Source of the DNA: Gamsiella multidivaricata
Taxonomy: Eukaryota; Mortierellomycota; Mortierellomycetes; Mortierellales; Mortierellaceae
DNA: 64,000 nucleotides
Assembly: GCF_025024155.1 (NCBI RefSeq)
Contig: NW_026251719.1
Location: 496,001 to 560,000 of the forward strand
Direction of reading: 5' to 3'
Of this stretch, positions 3,326-63,990 are shown piece by piece. The notes under the pieces were generated by a model that was given only the letters and a program-made list of their open reading frames with translations, was not told the DNA's origin and ran no database searches. Position numbers and translations under genes: made by a program. Within the stretch, counting starts at the first letter, position 1. Each line of letters begins with the position of its first letter.

Positions 3326-3575
3326 TGAGCTTCCAGTAACATGAGTATTTTCAACAGAGTAAAAAAAAAAAAAAAAAACATCCCACTTGCGCGACGGCAT
3401 GCAGACCGTGGTTGGCTAATGTCCGCTTGGGTTGGACAGGTTATCCTAGCCAAATCTTGGAACGGCCTACTGTCGCGCGCACCATCCCACCATACCTCAT
3501 GATAAAGAATTCGCCTACTACTTGTCCATTTCTTTGGTAACAGGTACAGCAGGCACAACAGTTTGAAATCGCATC

Positions 3576-53068: not shown

Positions 53069-54784
53069 TTACAAAAAGTATTGGTTTCCGCCGGCGCCGG
53101 ATGATGACTGGGTATGTTGAACTTCCACCGCTGAAAAAATCTTAAAGTTGGATTCATCCACGGTTGGGCCGTCTAGTTTGAGAATCGCTGCAACGTTGCC
53201 GCATCTGTAACAGTAATTTGGTGCCGACCAAACTAGCAACAACAAAATGGAAACCGATTCCAACGCCATGGTTAGTCTGTAATTCTTTTCTCTCCCCGAT
53301 CCTCAGAAATATGCTATCAAGGGTTGATTATACATACCTGTAACAAGGTTATCATCCGGGAACATGTATTTGAATCCCTCCTGAACAAGTTGATGAGCAC
53401 GAGCGATGAGGTTGAGACCGTTGACATGATTGAATTCGCTCGTGACCTTGGCGCCAAAGAGCCATCCTGCTCCTCTTGGACTCACTCCCCAGCCGTCAAT
53501 ATCATCTGGGTCTGACCACATCAAGTCTATATCGAAGATAAAAGATTGTTGGCACATCAATTAGGAATTCCTGTCCGTCGTGAACCGTAAAGGTGCTGGA
53601 AAAAGCATCGGATCCTTCATACCACAGAAGGCTCCTTCATGTGGGATTTCCTGGCATCTTTGAATGGTACGAATCTGATCCAATGTCCTGACATCGGGTG
53701 AGAGACCTCCATGTACGCACAGCACACGGCCATCGACAATCTATCCAAAGAGGATAGGGCAATACAGATTAGATGACATAGTTTTTCGTTCAAACGACGT
53801 AGATGAGGCATGCGAAATACCAAAGGTCTGTCTTAATATCGTTCCTGCTCATGTCCTCATGCAACTTACAGCAGCCAGCGTTAAATAATCGAACACTTGG
53901 CAGCAGTACTTCCAGACGTTTGCGTTTCCGTACTTGGTCTGGCATTCGTCTAAGAAATAACATTATACCGAGACGTCCATGTTAGTTACTAGAAGCGAAC
54001 CATGGAAATTATAGCCAACAATGACCAGTTCAGAGAGATTCAGACGCACCATAGAAGCCATATACTTGAGTGATCTGTCTACTCTCATGGTTTCCACGAA
54101 GAAGTGTAATCTTATCGGGCCATCTATCGATATTAACCAGAACAAAGAAAGATGACTTGGTTAGTATCACTTTCGGCCGAGCACAACGAAATTACGCGAA
54201 TCTATGTGAGATACACAGTTACTAGCATCAGCGCTAGTCCGTTGTCTATCTATACCTTGCTTTCAACACCATTAACAATGTAAATGTTTCCAAGCTGTTA
54301 AATCCTCGGTCCACAAAGTCGCCCTACAACATCAGTAAGATAAAGGGCGTCCATTAACAACATGAAGTCCTAGCCCTTCCTGCTTGACAACTTGCAGAAA
54401 ACCGTATATGTCTAAAGCACGCTTCCACTGCGCAATCCATGACCATGGCGATGGCCTGTATCCGTACCATAAAGATATAATTCGTTTCTGGAATCTCTCC
54501 TCCGACCCTGAAAAGCTCCATCAGGTCAAAGAACTGTCCATGGATATCTCCGCAGACGGTGACAGGTGAGCGTACCGGCTGGATGTTGGATTCCTCCATC
54601 AAGAGCTCTTTAACCTAAACGCGGCAGAGAAAACATTTGATGAGCGAGTACGTTCGCCTCAATCAAAAGATGCAGGCCAATGTGTTATTTGTTACAGTAC
54701 CATTTCGCACAGCTTCTTGATCTCGAGCTCTGGCAGGGGTTGACATTGTCGGACTGTCTCGAGCCATTCGTCAGGTCCAGGCAT
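53069..54784 (-). CDS. Serine/threonine protein phosphatase PP6/Sit4 catalytic subunit
   Basis: Metal-dependent phosphatase of the PP2A-like group; Sit4 in yeast acts in G1 progression and TOR signalling. Model on the minus strand: 54784-54701, 54614-54468, 54323-54256, 54123-54050, 53949-53870, 53740-53623, 53526-53338, 53232-53069; 307 aa. Seen: [109 protein letters not shown] and [17 protein letters not shown], with all metal and phosphate ligands present, and a C-terminal [14 protein letters not shown] and [19 protein letters not shown] favour PP6/Sit4 over PP4 and PP2A. Eight exons. The 5' end is only 364 nt from the 3' end of the nuclease gene next door. Confidence 0.95.
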
Positions 54785-55148
54785 GGTTGAATACGTGCTT
54801 TTTTTTTAGTGGTTATTGCGTGGTGAATTGAGTTGGTATGAAGGGTATGTGCTGGTGCTGTGTGAAATCAGGATGAAATTGACAAAGGCAATAAGAAAGT
54901 GAGTTGCAGTGCCTCCTTCTTTGATGGGATAATGGGCAACAGGTGAAAAAGAGTTGAGGTCCAACAAGCCTGGCTGATGCAGCAGAATGACGCCGAGGCC
55001 AATGAGGGAAGCGAGAGTCTCACTCGTACGAAATCCGCACATCTGCGCACCTATTACGTCACCGAAGTGGCTTCTAAGCGTCGCATACGACATGGGAAAT
55101 CATCAGGGGGAGTGTGGGGGCGGCACACAAAAAAAACTAGTCTGACTA

Positions 55149-58100
55149 CTATTCCTCGCGGGGTCGGCGCGTCCTCTGGAGAATCGCCATGATCTGTTCC
55201 TCCTCCTCCGAAGCCTTTCTCTTGGATGCCTTTTGGGTGCTGTCTTGGACGCTATCGAGAGTGCAGTTGTCGATGCTGCTACTGCTACTGCTGGTTCCCT
55301 CAAAAGCTTGGTGGTCCTTTTCCTCAGCGCCCCCGGTGGTCTCCGTCTTCATCCACGGATAATTTCCCTCCTCGTCTACCGGCTGCAGGTACAAAGGCCG
55401 CTGTTGGTGGAGCAGATGTCCTTGGACGGCATTCACCATGCTGTGGGCCGCCATCTCATCCCTGTGGAATGGAGTTCCGCAGTCCTCGCAGAAGAGCCTT
55501 CGGATAGACACCTGGGAAACAAATGTGTGACAACGGAGGCATTTCTTGGAGCTGTAATATTCATTAACACCAAGAACGATGTAACTAAGCGACCTGGCCT
55601 AAAGAGCGATGGCGGTGAAATGTGTGAAAGTCAATAAATGGACTATCTGTCGTAGGGACAAGAAATCGCCAGAGGAGTGAAACACTTACCAGGGGCACAA
55701 AGAATGCCAGAAAGGAGTCGTGGAGTGATGTGAGGCGCGAGCAACTGCTGAATTGACCAAGTCCAATGCCAATCACCACCATGTTCTTTTCGTCTCTTTT
55801 GGCGCCTATCGATCCCCCCACCGACCTCAGCAAACTGTTTGCGATTACCAGGTACTCCTCCTCCCGTGCACGTTGGGCATCCCATTTGTGGCTCTGGTAA
55901 AGCCTGTTCGAGCCATTGTAAAAACTGCTCAAGCGCTGCTCGACCATCTCGAGCTGCTGAATGTACTGCCCAACGCTTGCATCTGGCCCGCGGAGCGGTG
56001 GGAGGTCTGACTCAATCTCTTGGATCGATTGAGTTGCACCTTCCGGTACCACCCGTTTTTGCTCCTCTGTCCATCTTCGGAACTTGAATGTGGGTTGGTA
56101 CACGGCCTTCTGGTTAACAGATATGTTGTAGTATGTCTCTGGATAGGGCGGATCAATCAAAGAGGCAGCAGAGTTCGTCCCAGAGGCGGCTGTGGAGATC
56201 AAAGAGGCAGGAGTGACCCTGTGGGTAGTAGCGGTTGGGAAAGCAGAGATCGTCACGACACGCCCCTTTCCTTTTTTGTCGTTGATCGGACGGTCTGTAT
56301 CTGGTAGGAAGGCGCTTCCAGCTACAACATAGGCTTGACCAATATCCAGACACAAAATCTTGATCTTTTCTGGAGGGCAATGCGGCCAGAGTCGAGTGAC
56401 ATCGTCCTTGGTCTTTACGACATTCCGGATCTCCTGCAAGTAATAGTCGGTACCTCCAACCGTTGACGTCAGGCGAGGGGGCAAAATGGCATCTGCCAGC
56501 CTCCGATATCGAACTGCTTGCAACTCCCTTAACTTGTAGGCAGACAGCTGAAGCCTGAAGCCATTGGTGCGGAAAGATCCTGTCAGAACATATCCCTTGA
56601 GGCTGTAATTTCGAGGGTCAAAGTTGGGATCACGGATGGCAGACAAATGGTTCCTCGCATCCAAAAGGGACATGTTGGTGATTGCGCCTCGGTATCCCAA
56701 CTTCCCTCGTTGCCGAACAGTGAGACCAGTAGGAGCGACGTCTGCAATAAGGCTCTTGATTAGGAGCCCTGGCTCTTGATCTGGTAACCATATGGTTATC
56801 ACGTCTTTCTCCGAGGAGCAGCTCGGAAATGTGACCCTTGCCAACTCCAGAATCCGAGTTTAGGAGCGGTCGTTTCCAGCATAAAGTGACGAGCTCTCGC
56901 TCCGAGAACGAGACAAAACCATCCTTTGCCGAAGATAGTGGGGCAATCTTCCGCCTGTTGCCGCTCATCATGTTGAATGTCAGAAAGTCCTCCACGGCTG
57001 TCAACTCGTTATGGATCTCCAAGTCGTATCCAACTACTTCCGGTCTGCCTTTTTTTTGCCAACCTTGAGCTATTGTTGATAAAGCGACCATCTTGTAGTA
57101 GAAAAATTCCTAATGTCATGCTACAGAATTCATTCAAGAAATACACTTGTTACCTGCTCTTGTAGTTCAATCGCTCCATTGCGATAAATACGTTTGAACT
57201 CAGCGCCCAGCTGAGTAGACACACTCCGTACTAGCTCCGAAGGTGAGAAAGGTGTGCTCTAGCGTATAGCACTTGTTAGCCTTGGGGGAGTGTACAAGTT
57301 CAGCTCCTGTAATCGCCCAATGAAGCCAGTAACAAGTTTGCCAACGCCTCGATTCGTGGGAGGATTGCCCGAATAAAGATGTCGTAGAAAGGCATAAAGG
57401 AACTGACTACTGGAACTGTCAGGTTCGCCATCGATGTCGTCGTCAGTGTGATTCTCACTACTGTCCTGGCCGCCATCTGCATCCTTGAGTTCTACCCTTG
57501 GGCATAATCCATCGAGATAGTCTCGGTCCTTTGGTTGCATATAACCAGCCGCCATGCTTTCCACGTACAGAGCAATGAGTCTCTGAGCACGTCGTTTGGT
57601 CCTGTTGGCCTCTCCAACGGCCTCCCGCAAGCAGTCAATCATTTCGTCAGCGACGTCCGCCCTGGTTTTCAATGCCGCCCTGATGTTTGCTTGTATAGTG
57701 CCGATACGAAGAGTCGCCTTTGGGTGCTCCCATTTCAGCCCATTCCAGAGCTGTCGCTTGTCCATGGATTCAATAGGTGTTGGTGGCTTCGATGGCTTCT
57801 TGACTGGCTTCTTAGCTGGCTTCTTAGCTGGCTTCTTAGCTGGCTTCTTTGGGGTCAACTTGTTCTCAACTTTCTCCAAAGGACTCTCAGGCAGCTCGGT
57901 CCATGGCTTCCATTTGTAGCGCTTCATTGCCTGTGGAGGTTCGTGCGTTACTGTTTTCGTCCTGGTTTTAAAGGAGTAGCGAGGGCGAGGAGGAGGTGTG
58001 GTAGTCGAATCCTTGCTGTCCTTCGGAGGCGGGCGGTCGATGGTGCGGTACCTGTTGAACTTTTGAGAGGATCAATGTCGAGGTGGAGAACCGGGGGACA

Positions 58101-59349
58101 ACGCACTACGTACAAAAATGGAGAAAGAAGAAAGGAATTAATAAAACACTGCAAATGCAATTGTCATCACAGACAAACTGAAATGTATTGGTGAGGCATA
58201 CCTCTTTGTTGCCTGTCTGGAAGCTAACTGCGCCTGTTTCCGCTCGGTAAACTTGCTGCGAGCATACTGGTACCTTTCCTTGATGCCCTCCAATCTCGCC
58301 TCAAGTGCGGTAGTATCTGGTTTGTCATGTTGGCCATGCGCGATCGGGGTTTGGTGAAGATGGACGAAAACATTGATGCTCGTGTCGAAAGTAATGCCGC
58401 TTTTGTTCTTGATAACAACACGTTCATCAGCAAGGTATTCTTTCATTAGTGCCGGTACGTCTTTGGCTAAGAGATGAAAGATGAATGTATTAGAACAAGA
58501 CATTTTTTCAATGTGAAAAAGCCAATGCATAGTACGCACCCTGATCGTCTGATCCTTTGGCTTTCATATCCTTAACGATCTCATAGTTGGTCTCGCATCC
58601 CAAGACGTACAGACTGCGATTGTAATCATTGGTCGACACAACACCCAAGACCGTAAGCTGTTCTGCCGTCTCGAGTCCCAGCGCAGACAACATGTCTTTT
58701 TTCCGATACTCCAAGAAACCGCCACCACATACTGGTCGCCAAACAACAGGGATGCTGTGGTAAATGAGAAGGTCCGAGTCCCCGCTGATGACAATGTCTC
58801 CTTCCATGGTATCTGTGGCGATTTTGACATCCGCCTCTGTATCACATTGCACGACCCTCCATCCGTGGTTCTCGAGAAAGCGGACAAGTCCGTTCCGAGC
58901 TTCCACATCCCAGCGAAAGGCGTTTGTGAGTTGCTTATCAACATTGGTAAAATGGCGCTTCCTGATATGTGCGCCTTCGGATACACGATCCATGAAAGTC
59001 GTGACATGATCGTCGGCGGCGTTGATGGCCGTTTTTCGAGCATTCTGGCGCTTTTCATGGGTTGCAAGCTTTCCCTCGCATTGAGCGCCATCGAAGTATA
59101 GAATGACTGTCGTTGAATCCATGATGCGTTTTACGAGATTCTTCATGACCAGAGCATGGGCAGCCTCAAGGCCACTGCAATGAGTATAGGCGTATCGAAT
59201 CGTACAATAAAAGCTTCCTTGCATGTCGACGCGGAATTTGTTGTGTGGTTCACCAAGAGCTTGGCGTTGATTTCGCGGTTTTCGTAAAGCTGGGTCGTAT
59301 CGCTTTTTTTTTTCGCCGTCAGGAAGCGCCAAAAGGAAAGACACCCCAT
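55149..59349 (-). pseudogene. XPG/FEN1-like PIN domain fused to a Fanzor (TnpB-like) RuvC nuclease, copy 1, nearly intact
   Basis: Spliced path on the minus strand: 59349-58540, 58466-58202, 58051-57154, 57091-55690, 55598-55149, about 1,270 codons. N-terminal part: MGCLSFWRFL start, then VDMQGSFYCTIRYAY, VILYFDGAQCEGKLATHEKR, QCDTEADVKIA, ISGDSDLLIY and STNDYNRSL, the set of acidic motifs of XPG/FEN1 nucleases. Next, a linker with four KKPA-type repeats. C-terminal part: TGSFRTNGFRLQL, ILCLDIGQAYVVAGSAFL (RuvC-I, Asp at about 56345), VVIGIGLGQF, VLGVNEYYSSKKCLRC, LFCEDCGTPFHRDEMAAH (zinc ribbon and RuvC-III). Lesions: a 10-A run near 59304-59313 one base short of frame, a TAG at 57259-57261, and one extra base at about 56851-56860. 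The other splice sites and phases all agree. One lesion is a true nonsense codon, so I class it as a pseudogene, or an element needing re-sequencing. Confidence 0.75.
57793..57850 (-). repeat. 12-nt tandem repeat encoding KKPA linker units
   Basis: GGCTTCTTAGCT-type units, four or so copies on the plus strand, read as KKPA on the minus strand. It forms the basic linker between the XPG-like and Fanzor-like parts of copy 1. Confidence 0.85.
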
Positions 59350-60064
59350 GACGCGGACTGGATACCAATGGTGAAATGGAGAGTCGAGGCAACGTTGATT
59401 AGATATGAGATTTATACCAAACAAGGGCTGTACAAGGAAGGAGTGGAATGAGAAAAACGACAAGTGAAGAAATCCGATAGGTGGACTCGACCAATTGCAA
59501 CCAAGGGTGATAAGTGGCAACGAAATGAGATGCAGAGGATGCGGAGCAATAAAAAAGAATATTTGTTCCAATAAGAATGGCACGTACCTGTGAAGGCAAT
59601 GGTTCAAAGGACAAACAGCCAATATTGGTTATGGTAATGGGCAGAAGGAGCGGATAAGGGAAAGTGAGCGCGGAGGAGGAAACAAAAACGACACGCGTCC
59701 TTCTGGCTGGAGCGGGGTGAGAACTCAAAACGCAATTATGCAGCATTTGCGATTACAAGAAGGCATACTTCCTCTAGCATCACCCTTCCCGATATGGTAA
59801 TCCACTCCACTCGTACAGATGACGTTTCCGTACGGTTATGTATCCAGAGCAGCGATTGGCCGAGCATTTGTTTGGAAATAACGAAGCGTATCTTAGTACG
59901 AGACTATTAGCGCTTACTACACTCTTCTTCCTTCTAACACAACTCTTCATAGATAGTTTTTTTTATCTCACACTGTCCATGGTCAATCCCCTCTCGTACC
60001 CTTATTCTTCCTTCACTGTCATTCTTTGAAATAAAGTACCATATTTCTCGTCGTGTAGACTACT
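59350..60064. other. Divergent spacer between the two XPG-Fanzor copies
   Basis: About 715 nt between the two start codons, with the genes pointing away from each other. It should hold both promoters. I saw no clear similarity between the two upstream sides, and no terminal inverted repeats could be defined by eye. Confidence 0.5.
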
Positions 60065-63000
60065 ATGGGCATTGAAGGCCTGTGGCCCTATCTAAAAAAG
60101 AAAGAGTATGAACCCGTTCTTCGCTATCAGTCCTCCATTTATCCAACCTCCCTAGTTCCATTGATCATAATTCCGCGATTTGAGTCGATATCCTTGGGTC
60201 TCTTTATGCCACCGTTCGCTACTCTTATTCCTCGCACCCTATGGACGATGCTCACCCCATTGTCGAGCGAGAAATACTGAAGCTTGGGACCCAGACGAAC
60301 TTGGTTCTTTACCTGGAAGGCCTTCCTTTGAAAGAAAAAGAGCTCATTCAAGAGCATCGAGAGAGGCTTCGCAAGAAAGCTGTTGAACGCGCCCGACAAA
60401 TGTCTGCGTGAGCTCGAGGTTCGCATGGATAAAACCTTCGCGTGCGGAAACACCAGTTCATTGATATCAGAAAACACTTGAGCTCGGCCTTCTATCAGTC
60501 CCTAGACGCTCGACGCGCTTTCGCCGTATATATGCGCAAGAAACTGTAGATAATCGTCGAGTGCTCGACCGAAATAGATCTCACGATGGGCCCTGAATGC
60601 AAGCCTGGCGACATCGTTGTATCAAGTGATAGCGACATGCTCATATACAAGAACGTCGAGACCATTTGGCGACCCATCTCAAAAGGAAAATCTCTTTGTG
60701 TACGACGTTCCAAGCGCCTATGTGACTTTAGATCTCAGCTGGTCCAGTTTTTAGTGCTCAGAATAGCGTCTAAAAACAACTATAACCACAACATCCCCTC
60801 TCTCGGAAGTGCAACCAACTACAGAATCATCAAACTGGATGGAGAAGGAAAACGGATCAATCAGATCATCGTGTATATCACTGATGCAGAAAACGTGCAT
60901 TTTTTGGCTTGCAGACGTTGCGACGATGACGAAGCATTATTTGGCACACAATCAAGAATACTGCGCAGGAAACGTTTGTTATTTTGCAAAGGGTTTTTGT
61001 GAATCTTTTACAGACTCTTGTACAAATTAGCCCACTCCAGCTCAAGCTGCCATGACCTATGGCAGTCTTCGGAAGCAGTCCGATTGCCTTTCTCAGCGGC
61101 AATCCCAAATGCAGAAAAAGATGCGAGAGGCACGCGAGGCGGAGGAGGTATACAACGTCAAACACTGCCTTGCTTTGTAAGAATCCTCACTTGCATGAAG
61201 GCGTGCATAAAATTAACTCTAAATTATGGTAATCGCTACCAACTTTGTTAACTTAATAGTGAGTCAACTGGTACTAAGACTCGGCGGCACAAATCTTCGC
61301 AGACCTTCGCGCGATCGATCACCCTGCTCCACATCAGGCAGAGGCTGCAAGTGAGGTGAACCCTGCCCAGTCTTGTACCAACCCCCCACAATACCGACCG
61401 CAATATCTGTCAAATAGCGCATTCGACTTAAGGAACATGAGCCGCCTGAAACAATGAAGCAGTACACATGGAAGGCATGGAAGAAAACACCCGAGAATCC
61501 CTTGGATCCCGACGCTGGATCTTTCAAGAAGAAGAAGGACGTGAAGGAGAAAAGAGCGAAGAATAAAAAAAGAAGAAAAAGTAGACTACGCCAAAGCCAA
61601 TAAGTGCCCCGACAGGAAAGGCTGCCTTGGTTCGAGCTATGAATTGGGAACATCCGCAATCTGAAGCGAACTTTGGGAGAGTCGGAATTGGTATCCGAAA
61701 TCGAAAGGTGTCTTCGGGATGCTGTTCGGGTTGTGTCTGATACTAAGCGACAGGGGCAGCGACTCGTCAGGCAGTTCATTGAGAGTCTCTTTGTTTCACG
61801 CAACGGACAGAGATATATTGTGCAACGTTTGTCCATGTGTCTCGTCCAAGATCAAAGTTGAGGAAGAGGAGGAGGGAGAAGAATAGGGGGAGGGAGATAA
61901 GGATGATGATGATCCAGGGCGCAAGGACTCAGACCACCTACGCTTCCATACTGTGCTGTCCCAGCACCTCTACACAGGCGACCCCATCATCGCGCCAAAT
62001 GTAGTTGTTAAGCGCATCCAACAGTTTGTCGATCGAGCAGCGAGTCTTGGGCTGCTGCAGAGAAGGAACAATAGAACTGCAATTTTGGTCAGGAAGCCAT
62101 ATCCTGCTGCGGTTTTACTCCGCTCTGTTGCCTCGCAGCTGTCCAGTGAAATAAAAAAAAAAATACAGAAACGACAGCATTGAGCTCGAGAAAAAGGTAG
62201 AGAACAAAATCCGTGTTCTATCGCTACATGCATGCCAGTAGCGGTCAGCTGTAAGAACGACAGCACTAGCATTGACGATCTGTTGAAGACGAAGGGTCTC
62301 ATATCTGATGGGTCACGTATAGAGATCGACCAAGGCATCTCAGCCATCGAGAACTTCGTGCTTTTGAACCAGTCCAGCAGGAGTTACCGCCAGACGGCTC
62401 CACTAACAGGCACGGAGCAGCCTTTCATGTTATTCTCTGAGCGTGAGCTCGGTATCTTGCTTTTGGAAAATGCTGCGCTGAAAAAAAAGCTCCAGGAGCT
62501 AGTACTGGTGGACTATGGGAACAGGGACATCATTCCTTCTCAGCAGAACTTGATCGATTGGCTTGGGCAGAAGGCTTCTGGGTTCCTTATCACAGAGATG
62601 CTTTTGAACGTCGGCAGGCGTGAGCCACGCGAAGGGCCGAGAGATTACAAGGATTCGACGTCCGTGATGGGGTTGAGCATGATGAAAGAACACGTTCAAT
62701 CCATTCGGCTGACCAACTTCGACCTTATGACTTACGAGGGACGCCGCTATGTTCACTGAGGCTCCATTTGGACAGATGGTTTCCGCCTTCATCTGTCGGC
62801 TCTCAAGTTAAAAAGCTGCAATCAGTCAGATACAGGCGACTACTGCAGGATGTCTTGCCCCTTCGAATCACATCCACAGTTGGGGAAGTGGATTATTACT
62901 TGACGGAATTTATAAGCATTGCGAAGCCCCAGCAGGATGTCACCGACCTTTAGGGATATGCGCCGGATCAAATCAGGGCCCTAGGTCTCGACCTCGGCCA

Positions 63001-63990
63001 AGCCTGTGTACCTGTTTACTCGGAGCAAATGCGTTGCTACCAAAGAGCGATGATTCCGGCAGTACGACAACGGGTCCTGGAAGAATGGGAGATAATGTCG
63101 ACATGTGCAGCTCTTCCGAGATTACAACCCCTACTCCCGGTCCTCTCACTAATTACAATCTCGCAGTGAAGCAAAAGGCTGTGTACCAGCCCACGTTCAA
63201 GCACAGAAGATGGATGGAAGAGCAAAAAGAATCGTCCCAGGTAACGGAATGGAGTCCATTGGCAACATTGAGACTAAGTTGCCGTCGCTGCGTGGCAAGG
63301 GAGCTAGTTTTGCGAGCTATGTTACGGAGCTGGAGAGAGTAGAGGCACAACTGAATGAGTTTTACAACGGCAGCAATCGGTTCAAGAGGCATAAGTGGGA
63401 CGCGAGAAGGGCCAAGGATGCGGAGTACAGACTCATAACGGATCGCCTACTTAAGTTGGTCGAAGGACAGATCGGCAGAAAGAGAGAGGAAACCAACAAG
63501 GTTGTGATTGGGGTTGGTCTGGGCAAGCCTTCAACCAAGACGAGAATCTCCTCTTTGCACGAGTCCTTTCAGTCGTACTTTGTTCAGAAGGTAGGAGCAC
63601 TATCGCCTGAGAACCGATGTTATGTAAAATCGTTTTATGTTTTTATTGACTTTGTCTTGATGCCCTTTAGGCCAGATCTCTGGGCTACATCGTAGTTGGA
63701 GTGAATGAGTACGACAGGTCGGAATCCACAGGCTATACTGCTCAACCTGCGACACTTTCATACACCGCGATATCATGGTAGGGCACAACATTTGCAACGT
63801 AGCTCGCAGCCGTTTACTCCATCAACAGCGACCGCTCTTTCTTCAGGCAGTAGATAAGGACGGGCACTACCCTTGAATGCAAGATACAAGGCTGCACACA
63901 GAAGTCGGGGCCAGCAGCAGCACCAGCAGTAGCGCAGTAGAGCAAGGGCAAGGGCAAGGACGGGCTGGAGGACGCAAGCGAGCAGCCTGA
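60065..63990 (+). pseudogene. XPG/FEN1-Fanzor fusion, copy 2, decayed
   Basis: Same order of blocks as copy 1, read through several frames. Seen: MGIEGLWPYLKKKEYEPVL at the start, VDILGSLYATVRYSYSS, NLVLYLEGLPLKEKELI, GDIVVSSDSDMLIYKNVETI, NYNHNIPSLGSATNYRIIK; a linker starting MKQYTWKAWKKTPENPLD; a block with ERCLRDAVRVVSDTKRQGQR; LFSERELGILLLENAALKKK; ALGLDLGQACVPVY (RuvC-I Asp kept); KVVIGVGLGKPSTKTR; ARSLGYIVVGVNEYDRS; and CSTCDTFIHRDIMVGHNICN (RuvC-III). Stops and frame changes are frequent (for example TGA after RARQMSA near 60409, TAG after YMRKKL near 60547, TAG at about 62953). The first CxxC of the zinc ribbon is missing. A reading frame related to the start of copy 1 confirms the fused order is shared. 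Confidence 0.7.

Follow-up and report, generated by a model that had tools for sequence, protein, structure and literature searches.

In Rhizopus, Phycomyces and Mucor, the MuDR elements ROr-4, PBl-3 and MCi-4 bear Fanzor1 as cargo (available part of PMC3627910), and Fanzor1 right-end RNAs include the terminal repeat and the target duplication (available part of PMC10711439). A gene of related but broader make-up is present in Gamsiella multidivaricata, in a 64,000-nucleotide stretch of contig NW_026251719.1 (assembly GCF_025024155.1, positions 496,001 to 560,000 of the forward strand), hereafter the window. It is read, with a fair measure of confidence, as a transposon cargo gene encoding one predicted polypeptide, in which a basic linker connects an N-terminal XPG/FEN1/EXO1-type 5' nuclease to a C-terminal nuclease of the Fanzor1 type, and which would help its element to recopy itself into vacated sites. 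The fusion and its transposon setting, taken by themselves, are close to certain. Judging from their sequences, the carriers most likely form a family of Mutator-like DNA transposons in Mortierella-type soil fungi.

With the fused protein as query, the 7994 candidates sharing most words being scored, 16 proteins were retrieved, ten of which cover 99-100% of the query, namely those of Mortierella sp. GBAus27b, Linnemannia hyalina, L. exigua, L. zychae, Dissophora globulifera (marked partial), Benniella sp. (two), Entomortierella parvispora, Gryganskiella cystojenkinii and Podila verticillata. These are ten single gene models from nine species, whose genera, in so far as checked, belong to the Mortierellaceae, and the complete catalytic residue sets of both halves are found in all ten. 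The original prediction, which was made from the letters of the window alone, had named homologues occurring as two separate proteins as evidence that would speak against a fusion; relatives have single-protein fusion gene models instead. In the genome of G. multidivaricata itself, the N-terminal part has 123 matches and the C-terminal part 118, of which 113 and 88, respectively, were grouped into 98 N and 85 C clusters. Within 8 kb downstream, 44 of the 98 N clusters have a C cluster on their own strand, the reverse order being seen for 3/98 and opposite strands for 10/98, and the gap from N to C is between 1.2 and 2.5 kb in 34 of these 44 cases. Chance or misjoined exons were rejected on the strength of the fusion proteins of relatives and of this recurring part order, and an assembly artefact was rejected as the fusion is present in nine other species.

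Regarding the gene model of the window copy (copy A; Table 1), the splice junctions 58540/58466 and 58202/58051 anticipated in the original prediction are exact and in phase, and two additional GT-AG introns, 57154/57091 and 55690/55598, complete a five-exon gene. The claim that the minus-strand exons join in phase therefore stands for the junctions but not for an open joined frame, which is interrupted by three lesions absent from that prediction, i.e. two frameshifts, one lying between the ATG and position ~59250 and the other near 56860, and a TAG at 57259-57261. Carrying an in-frame stop and two frameshifts, copy A is a pseudogene, in the remains of which both catalytic residue sets are still legible. 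The exon structure and order, as well as the decay, can be read directly from the DNA. Besides copy A, tblastn with the fusion protein P0122 of a relative recovers a second gene (copy B) in nine collinear pieces, the first starting at residue 1 and the last ending at 1134; the left end of element A and the copy B start codon are ~250 bases apart.

Table 1. Features of the XPG-Fanzor locus (window positions).
Feature	Position	Strand	Description
Whole gene, copy A	ATG at 59349 to stop at 55149	-	Five exons, in phase, GT-AG introns
Exon 1	58540..59349	-	XPG/FEN1-type N-region and I-region (VD, FDG, TEAD, SGDSD, NDY); frameshift inside
Exon 2	58202..58466	-	End of XPG-type domain; in-phase GT-AG splice, aligns to fusion proteins
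Exon 3	57154..58051	-	Basic linker (YRTIDRP, RPRYSFKxR) and Fanzor-type start; in-frame TAG 57259-57261
Exon 4	55690..57091	-	Fanzor1-type middle (RTNG) and RuvC-I (LDIGQ); frameshift near 56860; predicted fold of relative P0122
Exon 5	55149..55598	-	Alternative RuvC-II glutamate (NEYYSSKKC), C4 zinc finger, RuvC-III HRD, stop
3' noncoding stretch to right end	55030..55148	-	Candidate right-end RNA (reRNA) scaffold by position only
Element A (window copy)	55030-59807		From comparison of copies; without transposase
Left end	59792..59807	-	Shortened relative to C128 and C137; compared with C137 and C128 left ends
Right terminal inverted repeat	55030..55063	+	Core GCACCTATTAC; matches C137 right end
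Target site duplication, start side	59808..59816	.	GTACGAGTG on minus strand; exact 9-bp repeat of other flank
Target site duplication, right side	55021..55029	.	Matches start-side 9 bp
Copy B	60065..63882	+	Second XPG-Fanzor gene, diverged and degraded, head to head with copy A

The assignment of the N-terminal part to the XPG/FEN1/EXO1 type is upheld by profile, motif and fold, mostly via relatives: the XPG_I_2 profile match is weak for the window piece alone (E 0.056), and the N part of the relatives matches both the family profile and the fold of these nucleases. The folds of both halves are predictions from a model of the relative P0122, in which EXO1 and FEN1 tie in Z for the XPG-type part. 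In alignment to RAD2, FEN1 and XPG, the seven acids of the N- and I-regions, which act as metal ligands in XPG-type nucleases, are complete in 10/10 fusion proteins. The mean protein distance among these ten is ~0.6, yet all seven acids are invariant, which argues, at the level of sequence conservation, for catalysis by the XPG-type domain. Several XPG-like open frames of ~380-410 amino acids with no Fanzor part near are also encountered in the same genome (e.g. G000:C139:144422, C175:88581, C115:481739 and C24:67102); with 26-31% identity to the N part, they are possibly an unfused source family or the cargo of other elements.

The C-terminal part is of Fanzor type by motif and fold, and a failure to match TnpB/Fanzor, considered beforehand as an objection, was not encountered. 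For the window piece alone, the match to Cas12f1-like_TNB is clear (E 6.5e-9), and the REC/WED/RuvC/TNB fold of Fanzor1 is matched by the predicted model of P0122. An alternative RuvC-II glutamate, located six residues ahead of a C4 zinc finger that is itself followed by RD, is present in 13/16 fusion proteins, the remaining three either stopping before the finger (P0134 and P0135) or being devoid of that stretch (P0136); the window copy ends as NEYYSSKKC...HRD. Only 8/120 further C-part proteins have the C4 pattern, seven of them together with the RuvC-II glutamate motif. Among the 16 fusion proteins, RuvC-I reads DLG in nine, DPG in five, DGG in one and DMG in one (DIG in the window copy), and the WED-domain motif reads TDG in 13 and TNG in three (TNG in the window copy), [RK]T[DN]G being found in 79/120 further C-part proteins, many of which are fragments. 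No Fanzor chain was matched in the PDB sequence searches, so that the assignment to Fanzor is based on motifs and fold. PADLOC returned Cas12f/Cas12u matches (best 2.1e-6) in the C-terminal region of P0122, with nothing beyond the common finger region, and a viral two-domain relative may exist, given BFVD matches that come without aligned ranges. Apophysomyces is a genus of Mucorales, and its protein P0099, with 43% identity to the Fanzor part across 68% of the query, hints at spread beyond the Mortierellaceae.

That the gene belongs to a mobile element, at first a guess, is borne out by terminal inverted repeats, target duplications and, in the sister copy C137, a putative Mutator-like transposase gene. 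The first 34 bases of the full left end of C137 match the inverted right end at 25/34, a score reached in 0/2000 shuffles, and the right end is the best match to this left end within the locus, self aside; an element without inverted repeats, entertained earlier, was dropped once C137 revealed the true left end. The right end of copy A is that of C137 except for one base of 40, and sharp ends are common to the copies on C13 (window), C95, C128, C137 and C10 (right end only for C10). They are flanked by target duplications of 9 bp in the window copy (GTACGAGTG) and in C137 (GCTCAGCTT) and of 9 or 10 bp in C128 (CACTGTGCA(C)); no convincing one was found for C95 or C93, the left ends of which probably lie outside the DNA compared. 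In C137, the transposase-like gene lies upstream in divergent orientation and matches a SWIM zinc finger above the cut-off (E 1.5e-4) and, below it, MULE (E 0.012 for one piece and 0.0032 for two joined pieces) and ZSWIM RNaseH-like (E 0.0012) domains, the carrier being most likely, on these sequence matches, a Mutator-like element. No transposase is present in the window copy A, nor in C128 at another site; as these two transposase-less copies occupy different sites, the shortened form probably moved with a transposase supplied in trans. Of note, the C137 element contains telomere-like CCCTAA repeats (L073 ~3527-3570) where the XPG-Fanzor gene lacks ~2.3 kb, apparently a break filled with telomeric repeats. 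Next to element A, a PP2A-like phosphatase gene runs on the minus strand from window position 54784 to ~53100 (Metallophos match on one exon; start and extent by eye); its start is ~245 bases away from the right end, which places the insertion upstream of this gene.

Concerning a possible guide RNA, the right-end fold of the C93 subfamily is more stable than most shuffled versions (z -2.57; 3/200 shuffles), and Rfam returned no match and the tRNA search no tRNA in the window. A joint mechanism, in which a guided cut and end processing lead to homologous copying, is proposed tentatively, at somewhat less than even chances, by analogy with the retention of TnpB elements (available part of PMC11870625) and with the Fanzor1 right-end RNAs (available part of PMC10711439). 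In this scheme, a right-end RNA would comprise the terminal repeat, the target duplication and, as its guide, the flank. With it, the Fanzor part would find the empty site or the element-less allele and cut there through its RuvC site. Flaps at the break would next be trimmed, or its 5' ends resected, by the tethered XPG-type site, repair would be steered from simple rejoining to homologous copying off the element-bearing chromatid or homologue, and cut-and-paste by the transposase would thereby become a net gain of copies. A slightly bolder and still more tentative proposal is that of an all-in-one homing enzyme, i.e. an RNA-guided nuclease with its own resecting or flap-trimming nuclease, by which a eukaryotic transposon would both make the break and dictate its repair.

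The XPG part might instead act in transposition itself, on hairpins, flaps or gapped ends left by the Mutator-like transposase, the Fanzor part serving only in targeting or retention. This is unlikely, although the gene travels within a Mutator-like element, the XPG acids are all kept in 10/10 fusion proteins and gapped or flap ends arise during cut-and-paste integration, since the fusion gene is retained in the transposase-less A and C128 and the XPG part is linked with Fanzor rather than with the transposase. Less probable again is that the XPG-type domain serves as a module for binding bent or flapped DNA near the R-loop, aiding the loading of Fanzor with little use for its own cutting: XPG-family folds do bind nicked and flapped DNA, and the predicted model has a separate XPG domain on a low-confidence linker, but the seven metal-binding acids are invariant across fusions so far apart, which argues for catalysis.

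A comparable doubt attaches to the gene being a dead relic, decayed transposon cargo throughout with no present role. In keeping with this, each of the three A-subfamily copies for which the gene was compared is damaged, but distant relatives have complete catalytic sets, and closely similar C93 copies sharing their right end lie at ten distinct sites with apparently unrelated flanks. In all, a sharp C93 right end was located at 14 places, 12 of them exact, with a single mismatch in one and two mismatches in another, against one place in the backwards control.

Returning to a single fused polypeptide, the frame after intron 2 runs on without a start codon, via the conserved linker (YRTIDRP; RPRYSFKxR). 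Among three subfamilies, the codons before the first methionine of copy A have proportions of synonymous differences (pS) of 0.73-0.80, saturated in 2/3 pairs, and of nonsynonymous differences (pN) of 0.34-0.52, as estimated for exon 3 only over 41-74 codons of a gappy protein-guided alignment. The lack of a start codon after intron 2 together with pN < pS suggests that these codons are conserved at the protein level and read in continuation of the XPG exons upstream. Out of 29 proteins found by the XPG half alone, six reach the linker motif (P0139, P0143, P0152, P0155 and P0157 by pattern, P0151 by eye) and 23 do not, several of the latter appearing to end at an exon end (intron 1). Two short proteins, P0159 and P0163, pass from the XPG part directly into the RuvC-II stretch and represent internal-deletion forms. 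Two adjacent genes of one element, joined by gene prediction only, would account for parts found apart and for the 23/29 proteins short of the linker motif, but are very improbable considering that the exon after intron 2 has no start codon and has its first codons conserved as protein, that phase is kept at all four introns of the window copy and that single gene models occur in nine species.

Several observations nonetheless weigh against a functional fusion of this kind. The parts can occur apart, 54/98 N clusters and 41/85 C clusters being without partner within 8 kb, of which some lone C clusters adjoin contig ends and part of the lone N clusters may come from other XPG-like families. The fusion is a prediction from DNA sequence, the proteins of relatives being themselves annotation gene models, and the window copy is broken, single-base indels relative to copy A, or a stop, being likewise read as frame damage in C95 and C128. 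Regarding the single polypeptide, the protein-guided linker alignment favours amino-acid agreement, C93 has an earlier methionine within the linker, and the correlation of distances between both halves across the ten fusions (r 0.75; reached by 16/5000 permutations) is equally expected for two genes travelling together. Besides, RuvC-I is DPG in only 5/16 fusion proteins, the MULE domain match is under the Pfam cut-off, the fold predicted for the copy A right end (z -1.08 including the target duplication, -0.87 excluding it) is within the shuffle range (32/200), and resection is a putative step of the mechanism.

The fusion bears on the role of Fanzors in their eukaryotic carrier elements: the conservation of both active sites in a Fanzor that is attached to a repair-type 5' nuclease points to a repair step important to the element. 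It makes the retention or homing idea directly testable, one active site being mutated at a time, and would, if true, offer a natural precedent for an RNA-guided cutter joined to an end-processing enzyme. XPG/RAD2, FEN1 and EXO1, which are structure-specific 5' nucleases, have the N-region, the I-region, the seven acids and the predicted fold in common with the N part; they are host repair enzymes, unlike the transposon-borne fusion, and to our knowledge none of them is known fused to an RNA-guided nuclease. In the open literature searched, no paper was found on Fanzor together with XPG, on Fanzor together with Mortierella or on Mortierellaceae transposons with XPG; one ambiguous line in the available part of PMC11071296, which mentions "candidate Fanzor flap endonuclease homologs" of two viruses, may or may not refer to a fusion. 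The TnpB of IS200/IS605 is a related nuclease, whose retention by cutting of the empty site is the mode proposed here, but is bacterial and associated with peel-and-paste, an end-processing partner in the same protein being unmentioned in the available part of PMC11870625. ROr-4, PBl-3 and MCi-4 resemble the present elements in being Mutator-like, with terminal inverted repeats, 9-bp duplications and no transposase of their own; an XPG part is unmentioned in the available part of PMC3627910, and here the sister copy C137 has a putative transposase gene too. For the Fanzor1 proteins SpuFz1, GtFz1 and PpFz1, which are eukaryotic RNA-guided nucleases related to CRISPR enzymes, an XPG-type domain is likewise unmentioned in the available parts of PMC10432273, PMC10711439 and PMC11423790. 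As far as the open literature searched goes, the XPG-Fanzor fusion is an undescribed variant of Fanzor1, in which RuvC-I is mostly DLG rather than DPG.
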